DNA from: a virus
Reading direction: 5' to 3' (one strand)
DNA length: 45,816 nt
Virus record (IMG/VR): IMGVR_UViG_3300008259_000283
Location: 1-45,816 of that record
Made by a program: the position numbers and the translations under genes. Positions 11,474 through 26,278 of the stretch are shown piece after piece. The notes under the pieces were generated by a model. The model saw only the letters and a list, made by a program, of their open reading frames with translations. It ran no database searches and was not told the DNA's origin. The number at the start of each line of letters is the position of its first letter. The stretch's first letter is position 1.

Positions 11474-11479
11474 AACAAA

Positions 11480-11503
11480 AAACCCATCGAATTCGATGGG
11501 TTT
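11480..11503. terminator. Palindromic terminator shared by the gene and the tmRNA
   Basis: A 24-base perfect palindrome (AAACCCATCGAA and its complement, centre GAATTC) followed by T residues on the plus strand. It lies between the 3' ends of the leader-bearing gene and the minus-strand tmRNA and could serve both. Confidence 0.8.
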
Positions 11504-11509
11504 AGATTG

Positions 11510-11910
11510 TGGAGCTAGGTGGATTCGAACCACCGTCCTGTGAATTACTTCACGAGAGGCCTACATGATTATTCGATTATTCATAACCGACAAATAGTTG
11601 GTTCTTATTTACCATCATTACCAACAACTATGGGAGATTCACTTAAATCGGTAGAACCTCCAACAAGACCTTTATTCCTTTTTGGGTAGAAACCACACCG
11701 TAAGGACTTCTGTTGCAAGGTACTTAGTCCATAACCCCTGGTGATTGTCTCAATTAAGCTACAACCGCGACATCAGACTTCAAGAGTCCGATAGCCTCCA
11801 TGTTTGCGAAAACATCGCCATTTGATTGTTTGAACCAGTTTTTTCGAGGTTAATTCAGCCCCGTCATGCCCTCTCAGATCCATTGAAACCAGTCGATTCC
11901 TGTTAGCCCC
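11510..11910 (-). ncRNA. ssrA: Transfer-messenger RNA (tmRNA)
   Basis: A single-piece tmRNA of about 401 nt on the minus strand. The 5' end GGGGCTA (11904-11910) pairs fully with TAGCTCC (11511-11517) as the acceptor stem. The T arm GGTGGTTCGAATCCACC sits just inside the 3' end. The 5' part has the tRNA-like opening GGGGCTAACAGGAATCGACTGG. A short tag frame ends at a TAA at 11754-11756. CCA is not encoded. tmRNA frees stalled ribosomes and adds a degradation tag, acting with SmpB, which would have to come from the host or from elsewhere in the phage. A TATTTATA box ends 7 bases before the 5' end. Pseudoknots were not modelled. Confidence 0.92.
11754..11807 (-). other. Candidate tmRNA tag-peptide frame
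   Basis: Reading from GCA at 11805-11807, in the context TCGCAAAC as in E. coli, the frame gives ANMEAIGLLKSDVAVVA then TAA: 17 residues. It ends in Val-Val-Ala, a plausible ClpX/ClpC-type degron, but differs from the short GENNYALAA-type tag usual in Bacteroidota. The resume codon is inferred; a start at an upstream GGC would add four residues. Confidence 0.55.
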
Positions 11911-11917
11911 GAGTGAA

Positions 11918-11925
11918 TATAAATA
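11918..11925 (-). promoter_or_regulatory. Phage-type TATTTATA box before the tmRNA
   Basis: Sense-strand TATTTATA ends 7 bases before the first base of the tmRNA acceptor stem, the distance expected if it is a -10 element. Confidence 0.6.
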
Positions 11926-11936
11926 TACGGAAAAAA

Positions 11937-11967
11937 ATTGAAATGTCAAATTCGTTTACTATATTTG
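11937..11967 (+). promoter_or_regulatory. Host-type promoter of the peptidase gene
   Basis: ATTG (11937-11940), 19 bases, TATATTTG (11960-11967), 7 bases before the ATG at 11975. This is a textbook Bacteroidota promoter with a very short leader. Confidence 0.75.
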
Positions 11968-11974
11968 TCTTATT

Positions 11975-12793
11975 ATGGAATATAGAAATTATGACTTGTT
12001 GAAAACTCTTTTGACAGTTCCCACAAAAACCTATCAAGAAGATTTGATGATTGAGTTTTTAGACAATTATTTGACCGAACAGAATATTCCCCACTATGTG
12101 GATGATTATGGAAATGTTTATGCGACTAAAACCTCCGAAAGGTTTAATGATGAAATTTTCCCTTGTGTGATTTCTCATACAGACACAGTACATCAACTTG
12201 GGGATGAAATCATTGTTGAAGAGTTCATCGGTAAAGATAGACAACAGAGATCCAAAACTTGTTTAAAAGCTGTAAACGCACTTGGTAAACCAACTGGGAT
12301 CGGCGGTGACGACAAATGTGGAATTTTTGGTGCACTTACTATGTTGTTAGATTTACCACACGTCAAAGCGGCTTTTTTTGTTAGTGAAGAAACTGGATGT
12401 CACGGTTCAAAAAATAGTGATCCAGAATTTTTTAAAAATGTTGGATACACTATTCAACTAGATGCTCCAGAAAATTATATGATTTCCGAAGTTTGTAGTG
12501 GTGTAAGATTGTTCGATAGAAAATCAGAATTTTTTTCCAAGGTAAATCCAATTATTTCTGAAATGATGATCGATGCGGAATATATGTATCATCCATATAC
12601 TGATGTTTCTCAAATGGTTCTAAAACACGGACTGGCATCTATTAACATTTCTTGTGGGTATTACAATTACCACACCAAAAACGAGTATATTGTCTTAGAT
12701 GATCTTTACAACTCAATTGAAGTTGTAAAACGAATGATCGAGTCACTAGGATATGAAACTCATCAAATGAAACCAAAAGGACACCGATGGTAA
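11975..12793 (+). CDS. M20/M42-like zinc aminopeptidase
   Basis: A 272-residue protein with a dinuclear-zinc peptidase core: SHTDTVH (His68, Asp70), GIGGDDKCGIFGAL (bridging Asp112 or Asp113), FVSEETGCHGS (catalytic Glu138, ligand Glu139), QLDAP (Asp163) and YYNYHTKNE (His233). This order is that of the M20/M28/M42 clan (peptidase T-like), which releases amino acids from short peptides or dipeptides. It is shorter than typical M20 enzymes (about 400 residues), probably because the dimerisation lid is missing or reduced. It lies between the tmRNA and clpC, with its own host-type promoter. Peptide clean-up after Clp degradation is an attractive inference. Confidence 0.85.
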   Translation: MEYRNYDLLKTLLTVPTKTYQEDLMIEFLDNYLTEQNIPHYVDDYGNVYATKTSERFNDEIFPCVISHTDTVHQLGDEIIVEEFIGKDRQQRSKTCLKAVNALGKPTGIGGDDKCGIFGALTMLLDLPHVKAAFFVSEETGCHGSKNSDPEFFKNVGYTIQLDAPENYMISEVCSGVRLFDRKSEFFSKVNPIISEMMIDAEYMYHPYTDVSQMVLKHGLASINISCGYYNYHTKNEYIVLDDLYNSIEVVKRMIESLGYETHQMKPKGHRW

Positions 12794-12796
12794 AAA

Positions 12797-12820
12797 AAAA
12801 GGGGACTTAAGTCCCCTTTT
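12797..12820. terminator. Bidirectional palindromic terminator
   Basis: AAAAGGGGACTT and its exact complement form a perfect 12-base-pair stem between the convergent peptidase and clpC genes. Confidence 0.85.
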
Positions 12821-14816
12821 TTGTTGATATCTTGATTTCTTCATCTTTGTAGGATAAATAATAATTTTTACCCTCCACGATATCGCCTGACAAGTATTTT
12901 TCGGATACCAAATCTTCGATCTTTTCTTGGATTGCTCTTTTGATAGGTCGTGCCCCATAGGTTTCATCGAATCCAATTTCGGCAATATGTGCAATAACTG
13001 AGTCTTGACAATTGATATTGATTTTCAAACCTTTGAGACGACTTGTAAGTTTAGTAACTTCAATTTTTACAATCTCTTTCACTTCTTCTTTACCAAGGGA
13101 ATTAAAAACAATCACATCATCAATTCGGTTGAGAAATTCAGGTTGAAAATATTTTTTCATTTCAGATTGAAGAATTGATTTTTTCTTTTCTTCTTCAGCA
13201 TACCTACTCGTAGTAAATCCGATACCAGTACCAAAATCTTGAATTTTTTTGATACCAATATTTGATGTCATAATGATCAAACAATTTTTGAAACTGATTT
13301 TTCTACCTAGACCATCGGTGATATGTCCTTCATCTAACATTTGAAGAAGTGTGTGAAAAATATCTTTGTTGGCTTTTTCAATCTCATCAAATAAGACAAG
13401 TGAATATGGTTTGGCTTTGACCTGTTCGGTAAGTTGTCCACCTTGATCGTAACCAACATAACCAGGGGGTGCACCAATAAGTCTAGACACATTGTGTTTT
13501 TCTTGATATTCACTCATATCTACACGAATTAAAGCGTCAGGTGAACCAAAGATTTGTTCGGCTAGTTGTTTCGCCAAATGTGTTTTTCCAGTTCCTGTAC
13601 CACCTAAGAAGATGTAACTACCAATAGGTTTATTGGGATCTTTGAACTTCAATCGGTTTCTACGAATTGACTTTGAGATTTTGGTAATCGCTTCGTTCTG
13701 TCCGATTACTTTTTTTGACAACTCACTTTCAAGATTGGACAAATTATTTTTATCATCCAAGGTCAAACGATTCAAAGGTATTTTTGTCATATTTGATACA
13801 ACATCCAAAACAACATCAACATCAATTGGACGTTTGTTCATCAAAAGTTCTTGTTCGAACTTATTTTTTTCGACTTCAAGTTTATCAAGAATTTTCTTTT
13901 CTGCATCCCTCAAATCAGCAGCTTTTTCGTAGTCTTGTTTTTTTACAACATCCAACTTTTGTTTTTTGATTTCAACCGCTTTGGCTTTAAGATTCTCAAT
14001 GATTGGTGGTGCTTTGATATCAATTTGTGATTTAGACCCAACTTCATCCAAAATATCGAACGCTTTATCTGGAAACTCTCTGTCTGTGATATAACGATCA
14101 GCCAAATTCACACAAAGCTCTAATACTTCATCAGAATATGTGACTTTGTGAAAATCCTCATACCTTGACTTAGATTGTTTGATGATTTGAAGTGTTTCTG
14201 ATTTTGACGGAGGATCCACGACAACTTTTTGAAATCTTCGTTCAAGAGCACCATCTTTCTCAATGTTTTGTCTGTATTCATCAAAAGTTGTCGCGCCAAT
14301 ACAATGAATTTCACCGCGAGATAAAGCTGGTTTGAATATGTTTGACGCATCCATACTTCCTGAAGAATTTCCAGCACCTACCATAGTGTGAATTTCATCA
14401 ATGAAAATAATCACGTCAGGATTTTCAGCAATCTCCTCAATAATTGCTTTCATACGTTCTTCAAATTGTCCACGATACTTTGTCCCAGCAACGATAGATG
14501 TTAAATCTAAATTGACAATTCTTTTGTCTCGTAGATTTCTCGGACACTTACCCTCGTGAATTTGGATGGCCAATCCTTCTACAATTGAAGTTTTACCAGC
14601 ACCCGGTTCACCGATAATAATTGCATTATTTTTTTTCCTCCGAGAAAGAATTTGAGCAATTCGAGTAATCTCTGATTCACGACCAACAACAGGGTCTAGT
14701 TTACCTTCTGATGCAAGTTTGTTTAAGTCCCGACTGAAATTATCCAATACAGGCGTGCCACCACTTTTTTTACGAATGTCTTGATCCTTTTCGTTTTCGT
14801 CCATTGATTCAATCAT
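12807..14816 (-). CDS. clpC: ClpC-type AAA+ unfoldase without N-domain
   Basis: A 669-residue double-ring ATPase. NBD1: Walker A GEPGAGKT (69-76), Walker B IIFIDE (136-141). A short UVR-type middle segment (KKQDYEKAADLRDAEK, about 292-307) marks it as ClpC rather than ClpB. NBD2: GGTGTGKT (405-412), LVLFDE (473-478), pore motif PPGYVGYD, and a GIGF loop (531-534) where ClpP-binding loops lie. The usual N-terminal Clp repeat domain (about 150 residues) is absent; the protein starts just before the D1 domain. It should unfold proteins and could feed host ClpP. The ATG at 14814-14816 is chosen; 14804 is an alternative and 14873 falls upstream of the promoter -7 box. Confidence 0.93.
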   Translation of the reverse strand: MIESMDENEKDQDIRKKSGGTPVLDNFSRDLNKLASEGKLDPVVGRESEITRIAQILSRRKKNNAIIIGEPGAGKTSIVEGLAIQIHEGKCPRNLRDKRIVNLDLTSIVAGTKYRGQFEERMKAIIEEIAENPDVIIFIDEIHTMVGAGNSSGSMDASNIFKPALSRGEIHCIGATTFDEYRQNIEKDGALERRFQKVVVDPPSKSETLQIIKQSKSRYEDFHKVTYSDEVLELCVNLADRYITDREFPDKAFDILDEVGSKSQIDIKAPPIIENLKAKAVEIKKQKLDVVKKQDYEKAADLRDAEKKILDKLEVEKNKFEQELLMNKRPIDVDVVLDVVSNMTKIPLNRLTLDDKNNLSNLESELSKKVIGQNEAITKISKSIRRNRLKFKDPNKPIGSYIFLGGTGTGKTHLAKQLAEQIFGSPDALIRVDMSEYQEKHNVSRLIGAPPGYVGYDQGGQLTEQVKAKPYSLVLFDEIEKANKDIFHTLLQMLDEGHITDGLGRKISFKNCLIIMTSNIGIKKIQDFGTGIGFTTSRYAEEEKKKSILQSEMKKYFQPEFLNRIDDVIVFNSLGKEEVKEIVKIEVTKLTSRLKGLKININCQDSVIAHIAEIGFDETYGARPIKRAIQEKIEDLVSEKYLSGDIVEGKNYYLSYKDEEIKISTKKGT

Positions 14817-14832
14817 TTTCTTTAATTTTTTA

Positions 14833-14864
14833 CAAATATAGTGAACTATTGATAAAAAAACAAT
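14833..14864 (-). promoter_or_regulatory. Host-type promoter of clpC
   Basis: On the minus strand ATTG (14861-14864), 20 bases, TATATTTG (14833-14840), 16 bases before the ATG at 14816. Confidence 0.7.
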
Positions 14865-14904
14865 CTTTGTCAAATTGTCAGTAAAATAAATTTTTAAGTG
14901 TCAT

Positions 14905-14937
14905 ATTGACTGATTTTTTTTGTTGGTATATTATTTG
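14905..14937 (+). promoter_or_regulatory. Weak host-type promoter of dnaK
   Basis: ATTG (14905-14908), 20 bases, TATTATTTG (14929-14937). The -7 box has one extra base between TA and TTTG, so this is a weaker match than the others. Confidence 0.4.
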
Positions 14938-14974
14938 TTTGTGTTAATGTAAAATAAAACAAAAAAACAAAGTT

Positions 14975-16846
14975 ATGAATAAAAATGTTATTATCGGTAT
15001 CGACTTAGGTACCACAAACTCAGCGGTGGCAATTATTGAAGGTGGACAACCTATCGTTGTTGCCAATTCAGAAGGTAAAAGAACGACCCCGTCGATTGTT
15101 GCTTTCACTGATAAAGACAGGAAAGTTGGTGATCCCGCTAAAAGACAAGCGGTGACTAATCCTGAAAAAACAGTTTACTCAATAAAAAGATTTATTGGTA
15201 AAAATTTTGATAATTGTAAATCTGAATCAAAGAAAGTTCCTTATAAAACAACAAAAATTTCAAACGGTTTAGTTGGTGTAAAAATTGATGAAAAAACATA
15301 TACACCACAAGAAATTTCGGCAACTATTTTACAGAAAATGAAAAAAACAGCTGAAGATTATTTGGGATATGAAGTGACAAGAGCCGTTATTACAGTACCT
15401 GCCTATTTCGGTGATCAAGAAAGAAACGCAACGATTGAGGCTGGTGAGATTGCTGGTCTAAAAGTTGAAAGAATTATCAATGAACCAACGGCAGCGGCAT
15501 TAGCATATGGTTTGGACAAAAAATCTAAAGACTCAAAAATATTGGTATTTGACTGTGGTGGTGGTACACATGATGTGTCCATATTAGAAATCGGGGATGG
15601 AATTTTTGAAGTAAAATCAACAGATGGTGATACACATTTAGGTGGTGATGATTTTGATAACGCAATCATCAATTGGATGACATCTGAATTTCAAACAGAA
15701 TATGGTATTGATCTCTCAAAAGATCCAATGGCACTTCAGAGAATTAGGGAGGCGGCTGAAAAAGCGAAAATTGAATTATCATCATCTTCAAGTAGTGAAA
15801 TTAATTTACCTTACATCACAGCTCGTGAAAATGTTCCAGTTCACTTTGTTAAATCATTATCGAGGAGTAAGTTTGAACAATTAACAAAAGAATTAGTCGA
15901 CAGAACAATTGCTTGTGCAAAAAAAGCACTCAAAAACGCTAAGTTGAAACCATCCGACATAGATGAAGTAGTATTAGTCGGAGGATCTACCAGAATTCCA
16001 GCTATTCAAGAAGCGGTTGAAAATTTCATCGGTAAAAAAGCAAACAAATCAGTAAATCCCGACGAAGTTGTTGCATTAGGCGCCGCAATCCAAGGTGCGG
16101 TTCTTACTGGAGATATGAATGATGTACTTCTTTTAGATGTTATTCCATTGTCATTCGGTATTGAGACTATGGGTGGTGTAATGACAAAAATCATTGAAGC
16201 AAACACGACTATCCCAATCAAAAAACAACAAACATTCTCAACAGCCGTTGATAATCAACCGACCGTAGATATTCACGTACTACAAGGTGAAAGACCAATG
16301 GCGAACGATAATAGATCTTTGGGTAGATTTTTCTTGGAAGGTATTACACCAGCACCGAGAGGTGTCCCACAAATCGAAGTCACAATTGATATTGATGCGA
16401 ATGGAGTTCTTCACGTTACAGCCAAAGATCAAGCGTCTGGTAAGGAAAACAAAATTAGAATTGAAGGTGGTTCTTCATTAACATCAGAAGAAATTGAAAG
16501 AATGAAACGTGAGGCTCAAGAAAATTTGGAACAAGACAAATTAGCCCAACAAAGAGTTGAATTATTCAATCAATGTGACACCCAAATTTTCAACACCAAG
16601 AAAAATATGGAAGATTGGAAAGATAAATTTACTGAATATCAATCTAGTAAATTAAACGAATGTCTCAAAAATTTGGAAGACGCATATTCCGAACGAAATG
16701 AGGAAAAGTGTAAAGAATACTCAGAAAAACTCAATCAAGTTTTCACCGAAGTTTCGAATGAAATTTACTCAACAATGAAACCAGAAAATGATATGAATGT
16801 TTCAAATGACGTTCAAGATATTGAATACACTGAGATAGAAAAGTAA
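14975..16846 (+). CDS. dnaK: Hsp70 chaperone DnaK, full length
   Basis: A 623-residue protein close to the normal DnaK length. The ATPase domain has [13 protein letters not shown] (8-20), [28 protein letters not shown] and [14 protein letters not shown], where most DnaK proteins have DLGGGTFDVS; then [17 protein letters not shown]. The linker [10 protein letters not shown] leads to a complete substrate-binding domain ([19 protein letters not shown]) and a helical lid, ending DIEYTEIEK. It should bind exposed hydrophobic stretches and fold or hold proteins with DnaJ and GrpE, neither of which is in this window. It is divergent from clpC across 158 bases. Completeness suggests relatively recent capture from a host and retained function. 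Confidence 0.96.
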
Positions 16847-16854
16847 CTTGTGTA

Positions 16855-16862
16855 TATTTATA
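16855..16862 (+). promoter_or_regulatory. Phage-type TATTTATA box upstream of a hairpin
   Basis: TATTTATA begins 8 bases after the dnaK stop codon. Unlike the other boxes it is separated from its gene (ATG at 16907) by a terminator-like hairpin. Confidence 0.45.
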
Positions 16863-16863
16863 G

Positions 16864-16894
16864 AAGACCGACCCCTAAAAAAGGTCGGTCTTTT
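16864..16894 (+). terminator. dnaK terminator hairpin
   Basis: AAGACCGACC (16864-16873) and GGTCGGTCTT (16883-16892) pair over 10 bases and are followed by T residues. It ends dnaK transcription but also falls in the leader of the next gene. Confidence 0.85.
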
Positions 16895-16906
16895 AATTTT
16901 GAAACT

Positions 16907-17152
16907 ATGGCAATATCAAAACAAACAATCGAGGGAACAAAAATTATAAATGAACTACAATCAAGTAATCTAGTAAGAACGGAATACGACACTAGTGATA
17001 GTAGTTTGATTGTCGAATTCAAGAATGGAACTAAATATTCTTACGAAAACGTCCCTCACAAAATCTATGCTCAGTTCAGACTAGCCGAGTCCCAAGGAAA
17101 TTTTTTCAACACAAAAATTGCAAAAGTGTTCAAATACAAAAAACTGACTTGA
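16907..17152 (+). CDS. KTSC domain protein
   Basis: An 81-residue protein starting at the ATG after the hairpin; an upstream GTG at 16850 would put the terminator inside the gene and is rejected. The KTSC signature is complete: SSNLVRTEYDTSDSSLIVEF, NGTKYSYENVPHKIYAQF, then GNFFNTKI. KTSC domains are about 60-70 residues, frequent in phages and also fused to lysyl-tRNA synthetase; their role is unknown, possibly nucleic-acid binding. The N-terminal 20 residues are an extra helix. Confidence 0.85.
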   Translation: MAISKQTIEGTKIINELQSSNLVRTEYDTSDSSLIVEFKNGTKYSYENVPHKIYAQFRLAESQGNFFNTKIAKVFKYKKLT

Positions 17153-17157
17153 TAATA

Positions 17158-17165
17158 TATTTATC
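17158..17165 (+). promoter_or_regulatory. Phage-type TATTTATC box
   Basis: TATTTATC, 4 bases before the ATG at 17170. Confidence 0.5.
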
Positions 17166-17169
17166 GTGA

Positions 17170-17904
17170 ATGGAAGGTTACCAAGAAATACTCAAATCTT
17201 TTGAAACAAGAGACATACTCAATGGTGAGATATGGAATGATGTATTCTCGGACAACCCAAAATTGAAACCCCAAATTAGAAAAATTTTATTAAAAATAGC
17301 ATCTGAGTTTCAAGGTTACTTGGGTGATGATATTTTTATTTCAGATGTAAGATTTACAGGTTCTCTAGCTAATTATAATTGGTCTAAGTTTTCAGATATT
17401 GATTTACATTGTATTGTAGATTTTGAACAATTCAATCCATCGGAGAGAGAATTATACAAAGAACTTTTCAATTTAAAAAAAACACTTTTTAATGAAAATC
17501 ATAACATAAGAGTTAAAGGTTATGAAGTTGAATTGTATGCTGAGGATATTACAGAAAAACACGTGTCATCGGGTGTCTATTCAGTCCTATTTAATGATTG
17601 GATTAATCAACCAATAAAGAAAAAAGTTAATATAGATAAGAAATTTTTCTTGAAGAAGGCTGATACAATGATGGATAGAATAGATAATCTGATGATTGAT
17701 GTAAGAGATTTAGATATTGATACTGCATTAACCAAAATAAAAGATTTTAACGACAAACTCAAAAAATACAGAAAATCTGGACTAGACAGAGGTGGTGAAC
17801 TTTCATATGAAAATATGATATTCAAGTTTTTAAGACGAAATGGATACTTAGAAAAACTTTTCACATTCAAAAATGAGTTGATGGATAGAAAACTTTCACT
17901 CTGA
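17170..17904 (+). CDS. Nucleotidyltransferase-fold protein
   Basis: A 244-residue protein with the polymerase-beta type nucleotidyltransferase signature: FTGSLANYNWSKFSDIDLHCIVDF (about residues 58-80), that is GSxA followed by the metal-binding D-x-D, and a third acidic strand VELYAED near 122-128. The remainder is helical. Enzymes of this superfamily add nucleotides to RNA, proteins or small molecules, or make cyclic oligonucleotides; no partner domain shows which. Related proteins are common in large T4-like phages near structural genes. No antitoxin (HEPN) partner is adjacent. Confidence 0.8.
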   Translation: MEGYQEILKSFETRDILNGEIWNDVFSDNPKLKPQIRKILLKIASEFQGYLGDDIFISDVRFTGSLANYNWSKFSDIDLHCIVDFEQFNPSERELYKELFNLKKTLFNENHNIRVKGYEVELYAEDITEKHVSSGVYSVLFNDWINQPIKKKVNIDKKFFLKKADTMMDRIDNLMIDVRDLDIDTALTKIKDFNDKLKKYRKSGLDRGGELSYENMIFKFLRRNGYLEKLFTFKNELMDRKLSL

Positions 17905-23960: not shown

Positions 23961-24715
23961 TCGCAACTTATGGTCACAGATTTTTGAAACGCGATGGTGT
24001 TTTCGAGGTTGTTGAGAATTTGAAACCGGGTGATTCTATGATGCCATTTTATCGTAAATCATTTTATGATAATCAAAATTATAATTGGGTATATGTATGT
24101 AATTCTAATGAAGGACATCACGGATGGGTTTCTGAACACAAATTAATTGCTGAATGGTATTACAACACTAAAGTTAGTACTGACGAGGAAGTTCATCACA
24201 AAGATTTTAATGGTAAAAATAATAACCCTGAAAATTTACAAATTATGAATATTTCAGAACACAGGGCTTACCACAGGAAATTGAATAATGAAAAACTTTG
24301 GGCTAATCCAGAGTATAGGGAAAAAATGTCAATTGTTGCTAAAAGAAAAGGAAAATTGAGTTGGAATGGAAGAAGAGCTGGGGTAAAGAATCCAGCTTAT
24401 TTTCATATACCATACGACTTGATAGTTCAAAAAGCAACTGAACATAAAACTTTAATGGGAACAGCGAACGCTCTTAAGGTTTCATATAAAAAATTACAAA
24501 GAGAAATAACCTATGCTGGTTATAAAGATTGGAGTACTTTTTGTTTTGCTTATGGTATTGAAAGATCAAAATACTCAACAGCCAAAGTTAAAGGTGATAG
24601 TTATGTGTTCAACCATAAAATTGTAAGTATTGAACCACATGGAGTTGTACCAGTATATGATTTGAGTGTACCTGGATATAAAAACTTTGCTACTGACACC
24701 ATATTTTCCCATAAC
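23868..24715 (+). other. Intein with HNH homing endonuclease in the portal gene
   Basis: Block A begins at Ser1 (23868). Block B, SHIIATYGHRF...VENLKPGD, starts near 23951 in the -1 frame. An HNH nuclease sits inside: LIAEWYYN, VHHKDFNGKNNNPENLQIM and SEHRAYH (about 24130-24280). The end is block F/G, VPVYDLSVPGYKNFATD then SHN at 24715, with Thr as +1 residue. The portal motif continues as TPEIASALDTYAEES. Between blocks A and B, where about 40-50 residues are usual, there are almost none and the frame changes. The homing nuclease appears intact. Confidence 0.8.
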
Positions 24716-26278
24716 ACACCAGAAATTGCGTCTGCGTTGGACACATACGCTGAAGAATCAACAACAGTTGATGAAAATGGTTTTATGTTACAGATTTATT
24801 CTGATTCACCCAGAATTAAATCAATTCTAGCAGATTTATTTAATAATGCTCTAGACATCAACACAAACTTACCTATGTGGACACGTAATACAGCAAAATA
24901 TGGTGACAATTTTGTGTTTTTAAAACTAGACCCTGAAAAAGGTGTTGTTGGCTGTTTACAACTCCCAAATATTGAAATAGAAAGGATTGAGGTTGGAATG
25001 AAAGGACGGGCAACATCAGGATTCGGTGCTGCACAAGCTTCGAATGCTGACACAAAAAGTCTAACATTCACTTGGAAAAACAAACAATTGGATTTTAATA
25101 GTTGGGAAATAGCACACTTCAGATTGTTGGGGGATGATCGTAAATTACCTTACGGAACTGCTATGACAGAAAAAGCTAGGAGGATTTGGAAACAATTGGT
25201 ACTGGCTGAAGATGCAATGCTTGTTTATAGAACATCTAGAGCACCTGAGAGAAGAGTATTCAAAGTTTACGTAGGTAATATGGACGATGCCGATGTTTAC
25301 CCATATGTCCAAAGATTTGCACAACAGTTCAAAAAAGATCAGATTGCTGACCCGAAAACAGGAAATGTTGATATGAGGTTCAACCAAATGGCGGTAGACC
25401 AAGATTTTTTCATACCTGTTCGTGATCCAGCAGCACCAACACCGATTGATACATTGGCTGGTGCTCAAAACCTATCAGAAATTGCGGATATAGAATATAT
25501 TCAGAAAAAACTTTTAACCGCACTTAGAATTCCTAAAGCATTTTTAGGTTTTGAAGAACCCGTGGGTGATGGGAAGAATTTGTCGTTACAGGATATCCGA
25601 TTTGCAAGAACTATCAATAGAATTCAAAAGTGTATGATTGCCGAACTAAATAAAATTGCAATTATACACTTGTTTCTACTTGGGTTTGAAGATGAATTAG
25701 GTTCATTTCAATTATCACTTACTAATCCATCCAAACAAGCTGATTTACTTGCGGTAGAAGTTTGGAAAGAAAAAATGTTGTTGTATAGAGATGCGGTTAC
25801 AAAAATTGAAGGGATTGCCCCAGTATCGGTAGCTTGGGCTAAAAAACACGTTCTTGGGTTTTCGGACGATGAAATCAAACTTGATTTACAACAACAGAGA
25901 ATGGAAATGGCGGTTGCCGCAGAACTCACAAACACACCTAATGTTATTAACAGAACTGGTTTATTTGATAACATTGATAAGTTATATGGAAAACAAACAT
26001 TGAGTGGTGAAACTTCTACGTCAGAAACCGCACCTATGGGTGGAGCAGAACCTTTACCACCAATAGGTGGTGATATGGGAAGTCCTCAACCTGATTTTGG
26101 TGGCGGAGGGTTACCACCCGCACCAGAAGAACCTACGTTAGCTCCAGAGAGTAGGAAAAAAACACCAAATATAATTTTGGAAAGAATGCAAATTGATACT
26201 ATAGATGACATTGATTTCAGTAAAGGTGAAAAAATACTGAACTCAATTCAAAATGAACTAGACAAATTATCGGATTGA
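23936..26278 (+). CDS. Intein C-part with HNH, then portal protein C-extein
   Basis: This frame is open from 23936 (after a TAA at 23933-23935) and has no ATG before 24036; the first non-ATG start is a TTG at 23984, which would already have lost block B. After the intein ends at 24715, about 520 residues of portal follow: PEIASALDTYAEES, MWTRNTAKYGDNFVF, HFRLLGDD, YGTAMTEKARRIWKQL, EDAMLVYRTSRAPERRVF, and KLLTALRIPKAFLGFEE. This is a gp20-type portal, the dodecamer through which DNA enters and leaves the head. Total extein length, about 612 residues, is normal. The tail is Pro/Gly-rich and acidic. Confidence 0.9.
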   Translation, partial: RYDDGSHIIATYGHRFLKRDGVFEVVENLKPGDSMMPFYRKSFYDNQNYNWVYVCNSNEGHHGWVSEHKLIAEWYYNTKVSTDEEVHHKDFNGKNNNPENLQIMNISEHRAYHRKLNNEKLWANPEYREKMSIVAKRKGKLSWNGRRAGVKNPAYFHIPYDLIVQKATEHKTLMGTANALKVSYKKLQREITYAGYKDWSTFCFAYGIERSKYSTAKVKGDSYVFNHKIVSIEPHGVVPVYDLSVPGYKNFATDTIFSHNTPEIASALDTYAEESTTVDENGFMLQIYSDSPRIKSILADLFNNALDINTNLPMWTRNTAKYGDNFVFLKLDPEKGVVGCLQLPNIEIERIEVGMKGRATSGFGAAQASNADTKSLTFTWKNKQLDFNSWEIAHFRLLGDDRKLPYGTAMTEKARRIWKQLVLAEDAMLVYRTSRAPERRVFKVYVGNMDDADVYPYVQRFAQQFKKDQIADPKTGNVDMRFNQMAVDQDFFIPVRDPAAPTPIDTLAGAQNLSEIADIEYIQKKLLTALRIPKAFLGFEEPVGDGKNLSLQDIRFARTINRIQKCMIAELNKIAIIHLFLLGFEDELGSFQLSLTNPSKQADLLAVEVWKEKMLLYRDAVTKIEGIAPVSVAWAKKHVLGFSDDEIKLDLQQQRMEMAVAAELTNTPNVINRTGLFDNIDKLYGKQTLSGETSTSETAPMGGAEPLPPIGGDMGSPQPDFGGGGLPPAPEEPTLAPESRKKTPNIILERMQIDTIDDIDFSKGEKILNSIQNELDKLSD

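Follow-up and report, generated by a model that had tools for sequence, protein, structure and literature searches.

A conserved tmRNA-peptidase-clpC cassette with a long tag peptide in huge phages of Bacteroidota-type bacteria

A tmRNA gene, a gene for a small PepT-like peptidase and a clpC gene form a conserved core cassette in a lineage of huge tailed phages, and the tag peptide encoded by the tmRNA is under selection as a protein sequence. The DNA analysed here (the window) is a 45.8-kb piece of a tailed-phage genome that contains terminase, portal, head protease and major capsid genes; it belongs to a huge virus of Bacteroidota-type bacteria, and the cassette is common to about 70 relatives. 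Our preferred interpretation, which we regard as evenly balanced between right and wrong, is that the cassette combines trans-translation with proteolysis by means of a phage-specific degron. A preliminary description of this DNA had treated tmRNA, peptidase, ClpC and DnaK as one protein-quality-control island, an interpretation that is partly supported by the results below.

Virus-encoded parts of trans-translation, as found here, have been described before: tmRNA and SmpB occur in huge phages, where they were found with ARAGORN and the main text contains no tag analysis (PMC7162821), and ssrA genes are present in Bacillus phage G and mycobacteriophage Bxz1 (PMC4131195). Neither the long conserved tag nor the tmRNA-peptidase-clpC cassette is reported in the open-access literature searched.

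The first 25 kb of the window gave no match to GenBank phages at the DNA level. The lineage resembles the published moraphages, which are aquatic phages of 200 to 307 kb with predicted Bacteroidota hosts, and whose core genes likewise include a Clp ATP-binding subunit and a putative peptidase (PMC12619734); this likeness was judged by core genes and predicted host rather than by the TerL, MCP and PolB trees of that study. DnaK and DnaJ are encoded by some moraphages, so that chaperones are variable there as they are here, whereas the main text of the same paper mentions no tmRNA, tag or gene clustering. The assignment of the window virus to Bacteroidota hosts is based on its promoters, its homologues and the moraphage parallel. 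In the portal ORF of the window (23984-26278), the first ~110 residues contain an HNH endonuclease domain and the portal domain follows; fusion to a homing endonuclease, read-through of an intron or a wrong start could each produce this arrangement.

Table 1. Features of the tmRNA-peptidase-clpC locus and the adjoining dnaK gene in the window
Feature	Position	Strand	Basis
tmRNA intrinsic terminator, CCCATCGAATTCGATGGG + T-run	11474..11500	-	sequence
tmRNA (ssrA), one-piece, 404 nt	11507..11910	-	RF00023, acceptor stem, homologues
Tag frame from the GGC resume codon through TAA, encoding GDVFANMEAIGLLKSDVAVVA	11754..11819	-	Rfam alignment, host context
Probable tmRNA promoter, TTTG-N19-TATATTTA	11920..11950	-	Bacteroidota type, one -7 mismatch
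TATATTTG -7 element before peptidase gene	11960..11967	+	sequence
PepT-like (M20-type) metallopeptidase, catalytic domain only	11975..12793	+	profile, residues, model, fold search
ClpC unfoldase without N domain; two AAA modules, GIGF as ClpP-contact loop	12807..14816	-	alignment, motifs
TATATTTG -7 element before clpC	14833..14840	-	sequence
Full-length DnaK, accessory	14975..16846	+	TIGR02350, PRK00290 above cut-off

Relatives were sought through dnaK and through clpC. The 80 clpC loci represent one phage neighbourhood, and most of them also contain KTSC, nucleotidyltransferase, terminase and portal genes. A DNA profile made from the first tmRNAs found a tmRNA in 72 loci (the window and 71 relatives); in 72/72 loci with a match it lies on the clpC strand, 897 to 5644 bp away, and in the 16 clpC loci without a match the available sequence on that side does not exceed 5.5 kb. 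The presence of the tmRNA was confirmed by Rfam in all 13 clade loci that were spot-checked. The peptidase gene is antiparallel to tmRNA and clpC in 68 loci and parallel in four, at 44 to 3815 bp from the tmRNA, with changing neighbours between them. The preliminary description had placed four parts of one pathway side by side and proposed a search for their linkage in related phages; such a search retains tmRNA, peptidase and clpC as the core, whereas dnaK is absent from most of the clade records checked. The constant linkage of tmRNA and clpC, together with the short flanks of the relatives that gave no hit, argues for the cassette.

The three genes could instead be independent neighbours, kept together only by infrequent rearrangement in this part of the phage genome. 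The order of the KTSC, nucleotidyltransferase, terminase and portal genes is also kept, and proximity alone is no proof of joint function; moreover, four records with tmRNAs of the same family were reached through dnaK, not clpC. However, the trio persists while the spacing and relative strand of peptidase and tmRNA vary (four flips), and of the four clade records that encode SmpB, three have smpB only 0.1 to 0.9 kb from the tmRNA. We consider independent neighbours very improbable.

A further point against a functional cassette is that 62 loci have an unrelated gene between peptidase and tmRNA, which is absent from this position in the window's subclade. The proteins of this intervening family (for example, L145:13525-14583) are divergent, with a confident AlphaFold model (pLDDT 89). 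They have no match in Pfam, PADLOC or NCBIfam and no PDB fold match under E 0.03, and a known adaptor was rejected on these grounds. Almost throughout the clade, clpC is accompanied by the genes for the KTSC and nucleotidyltransferase-like proteins (window 16850-17904).

The window tmRNA, noted in the preliminary description, is complete and matches the full RF00023 model (positions 1-374) with 90.1 bits (cut-off 47; E 8e-34). Its acceptor stem, earlier called perfect, consists of seven pairs, including the G3.U70 alanine identity pair that is present in 69/69 full-length tmRNAs of the family, this one among them. The 3' end reads ACAA in the DNA, and CCA is not encoded. The terminator hairpin folds at -16.1 kcal/mol (52-nt stretch). 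The element upstream, first taken for a phage-type box, is indeed promoter-like but reads close to the Bacteroidota type, and TAnnTTTG occurs at this position in many relatives. ARAGORN missed the tmRNA in the window and misread or missed most others of its family; as it sets the frame wrongly in these tmRNAs, its tags were dropped wherever they conflicted with the resume codon given by Rfam.

The tag had been left unread in the preliminary description, and it is the most informative part of the locus. The Rfam alignment sets the resume codon as GGC at 11819, in an xAAxY-GGC context that is common to phage and host Bacteroidota tmRNAs. The encoded peptide, which comes after the added alanine, has 21 codons before TAA. 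The 69 full-length tmRNAs of the family encode 48 different peptides, 43 with 21 residues and five with 22. Every unique sequence (55/55) has an open tag frame, whereas the two other frames are open in three and six; pN/pS in the tag frame is 0.63, the lowest of the three (0.82 and 1.0 in the others), and the third codon position is the most variable. Gly-11 and Leu-12 are invariant despite the use of three different Gly codons and five different Leu codons, the first glycine and the alanine at position 21 are nearly invariant, and internal conservation extends over G-L, K/N and M/L. The open and conserved frame, the low pN/pS and the invariant G11-L12 with varied codons indicate selection on the peptide and not on RNA structure alone.

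Host tags differ from these in both length and ending. All 39 readable Bacteroidota tags, which come from genomes at large and may differ from those of the actual hosts of these phages, have 9 or 10 residues and end in LAA (25), MAA (13) or YAA (1). There is no overlap in length between phage and host tags, and the phage tags depart from the canonical ssrA degron of about 9 to 11 residues with an LAA or similar xAA end. In a 2025 tmRNA database that used RefSeq viruses, the commonest tag length is 10 residues. Three huge phages reached via dnaK (L320, L322 and L324) have tags of the same family, which were read manually starting at the shared resume context; two others have longer tags, GNTNEVGSVEDLVFALRNNILKANRLAVA with 29 residues in L325 (from ARAGORN) and GNVITNEVGSLSDILSVLAKSKTTATQVEELEIA with 34 residues in L321 (read by hand; ARAGORN gives only the last 16). 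Mimicry of phage protein C-termini was rejected because no ORF at the clade loci ends like a tag, and a clear amphipathic-helix signal was absent.

The C-termini of the phage tags also leave room for ordinary supplementary trans-translation, in which the phage tmRNA would provide extra rescue during heavy translation, the tag would send products to host ClpXP, and ClpC and peptidase would serve other substrates. Most tags have a small hydrophobic C-terminus with a final alanine (VA in 32/48 peptides, AA in 5/48), and the variants LVA, AAV and SVA serve as degradation tags in Escherichia coli, LVA, with its VA end, through ClpXP (PMC9382460); VVA and VTVA ends may thus suit host ClpXP too, which counts against the cassette, and the known tmRNA and SmpB genes of huge phages fit a supplementary role as well. 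Such a role leaves unexplained why the tag is twice the host length with conserved G-L, K/N and M/L, and why the xAA ending was lost while the resume context stayed the same. We consider it unlikely, yet the most credible of the alternatives.

The cassette interpretation draws on these same features of the tag, namely its open frame, low pN/pS and invariant G11-L12 and the short LAA, MAA or YAA-ending tags of all 39 hosts, and it has a precedent in Mollicutes without active ClpXP, where a longer ssrA tag is read by Lon (PMC9382460). The ssrA-Lon system of Mesoplasma florum resembles that of the phage in combining a longer, divergent tag with a change of protease; it differs in being cellular, in using Lon instead of ClpC and in its tag end, NYAFA.

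The phage ClpC was correctly described as N-domainless with intact motifs and a GIGF loop. Its alignment begins at residue 154/156 of bacterial ClpC, so that the adaptor-binding N domain of ~150 residues found in bacterial ClpC is absent, and both Walker motifs are intact; the UVR-like middle region was judged from sequence. Two AAA modules, pore loops and an [IVL]GF-type loop are shared with ClpC of Bacillus subtilis and Staphylococcus aureus (PDB 3j3t, 6em8). NCBIfam equivalog cut-offs lie above its scores for both ClpB (796 vs 1232 bits) and ClpA (716 vs 993 bits). The ClpP loop, [IVM]GF, is kept in 88/88 ClpC sequences, including those of lineages without a phage clpP. The TATATTTG -7 elements just before the clpC and peptidase genes agree with the host-type promoters described earlier.

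The preliminary description had recorded neither clpP nor smpB in the window. Searches of the relatives recovered clpP in 18 clade records, all on the clpC strand and the tmRNA side, 14 to 43 kb off, and smpB in the four records mentioned above. The serine motif is kept in the five clpP ORFs that were read. Because the clpP of relatives falls past the left end of the window, nothing can be concluded from the lack of clpP and smpB in the window itself, and a lack of clpP as a property of this phage was rejected. No clpP was found within 56 kb of the locus in the closest relatives of the window, a point against the cassette, nor in several records that extend beyond 50 kb on the tmRNA side, including L004, which is close to the window; most relatives are fragments, so that absences carry little weight. 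On the ClpC tree, clpP presence requires just three gains or losses, while tmRNA and clpC are constant. Since the ClpP loop is conserved throughout, the phage of the window probably uses host ClpP and host SmpB.

The missing clpP genes could also fit a protective or diverting tag, which would let the phage tmRNA out-compete that of the host with a label that host ClpXP reads poorly, thereby sparing the products or passing them to ClpC as a chaperone. The departure from xAA, the lineages with no nearby clpP across more than 50 kb and the addition of DnaK or DnaJ in some members are consistent with this, but the ClpP loop is kept even without a phage clpP, the peptidase is a constant neighbour and many members encode ClpP. 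A protective tag thus appears improbable. The same loop, the G3.U70 pair in every tmRNA of the family, the constancy of tmRNA and clpC against the few gains or losses of clpP, and the shared side and strand of clpP in 18 records all argue for the cassette.

The peptidase, earlier described as M20/M42-like with intact key residues, is PepT-like (M20 type) by profile and fold. Its sequence alone falls under the Pfam cut-offs for M20 and M42 (PF01546, 24 vs 24.6 bits) and under the curated PepT cut-off (40.7 vs 255 bits); however, a profile of 41 relatives matches PepT in the PDB, and an AlphaFold model (pLDDT 92.5) has PepT as its top match in a fold search. H68, D70, D112/D113, E138/E139, D163 and H233 are invariant in the 41 sequences, and the catalytic fold and metal/catalytic residues are those of peptidase T (PDB 1vix, 3gb0). 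Peptidase T has ~410 residues and a lid/dimerisation domain, whereas the phage protein has 272 and lacks this domain. Thus, it is a minimal PepT-like enzyme, with predicted tripeptidase activity.

Within the cassette, the phage tmRNA would be charged with alanine and would bind SmpB of the host, or that brought by the phage in a few relatives. It would then rescue stalled ribosomes by trans-translation, adding alanine and the phage-specific tag of 21 to 22 residues. The short host degron with its xAA end would thereby have been replaced, so that trans-translation is kept and the address label changed. As ClpC is the constant neighbour of the changed tag and lacks the adaptor-binding domain, the leading hypothesis for recognition is that ClpC reads the tag directly. 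ClpC would feed ClpP, probably that of the host here and the phage's own in many relatives, and the lidless peptidase would then trim the released peptides for recycling. A stricter form, in which the 21-22-residue tag is read only by viral ClpC (with host or viral ClpP) as an orthogonal tag-protease pair, is possible, but we lean against it.

These features suggest that the viruses mark unfinished proteins in a code of their own. Until now phage tmRNAs have been catalogued with no purpose assigned to them; a conserved non-host tag beside an unfoldase that may read it turns the question of why a phage carries a tmRNA into that of which protease degrades the tag. If the tag-protease pair is orthogonal, the phage would decide what becomes of each stalled chain in the infected cell, and the pair would be a candidate degron system for Bacteroidota. 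The length of the tags would also help in detecting phage-tagged products during infection.

The DnaK gene next to clpC is full-length, as described (917.5 bits against the TIGR02350 equivalog cut-off of 822.6), and its promoter is weak; it does not belong to the unit in which it had been included. Only in the window, ten close relatives and L138 does dnaK lie between clpC and the KTSC gene. In L104 it is elsewhere in the record, and 18 of 25 checked clade records have no dnaK, a distribution by which DnaK was rejected as a core member. Five larger records (L314, L315 and G002-G004) encode J-domain proteins of ~310 residues without DnaK. Chaperones are thus variable additions, as reported for moraphages (PMC12619734).

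In ~22/72 loci (L090:6387-6793 and L093:13974-14385, both on the minus strand, and ~20 further clade loci), GOLLD RNA (RF02032), a large RNA whose function is not known, lies opposite in strand to the tmRNA and within ~4 kb of it. Most of these loci belong to lineages that yielded no phage clpP, and the RNA does not occur in the window. It is also present ~2 to 6 kb from clpC in LR745206 and LR756502 (635-642 kb; L316:7535-7940, L317:4007-4413), at whose clpC loci a search for a tmRNA found none. Short RF00023 matches in two huge phages (L326:1501-1627 and L327 near 1501-1630) were rejected as TLD-only tmRNAs: they are tRNA-like genes of ~127-130 nt with a long insertion, located inside tRNA clusters.
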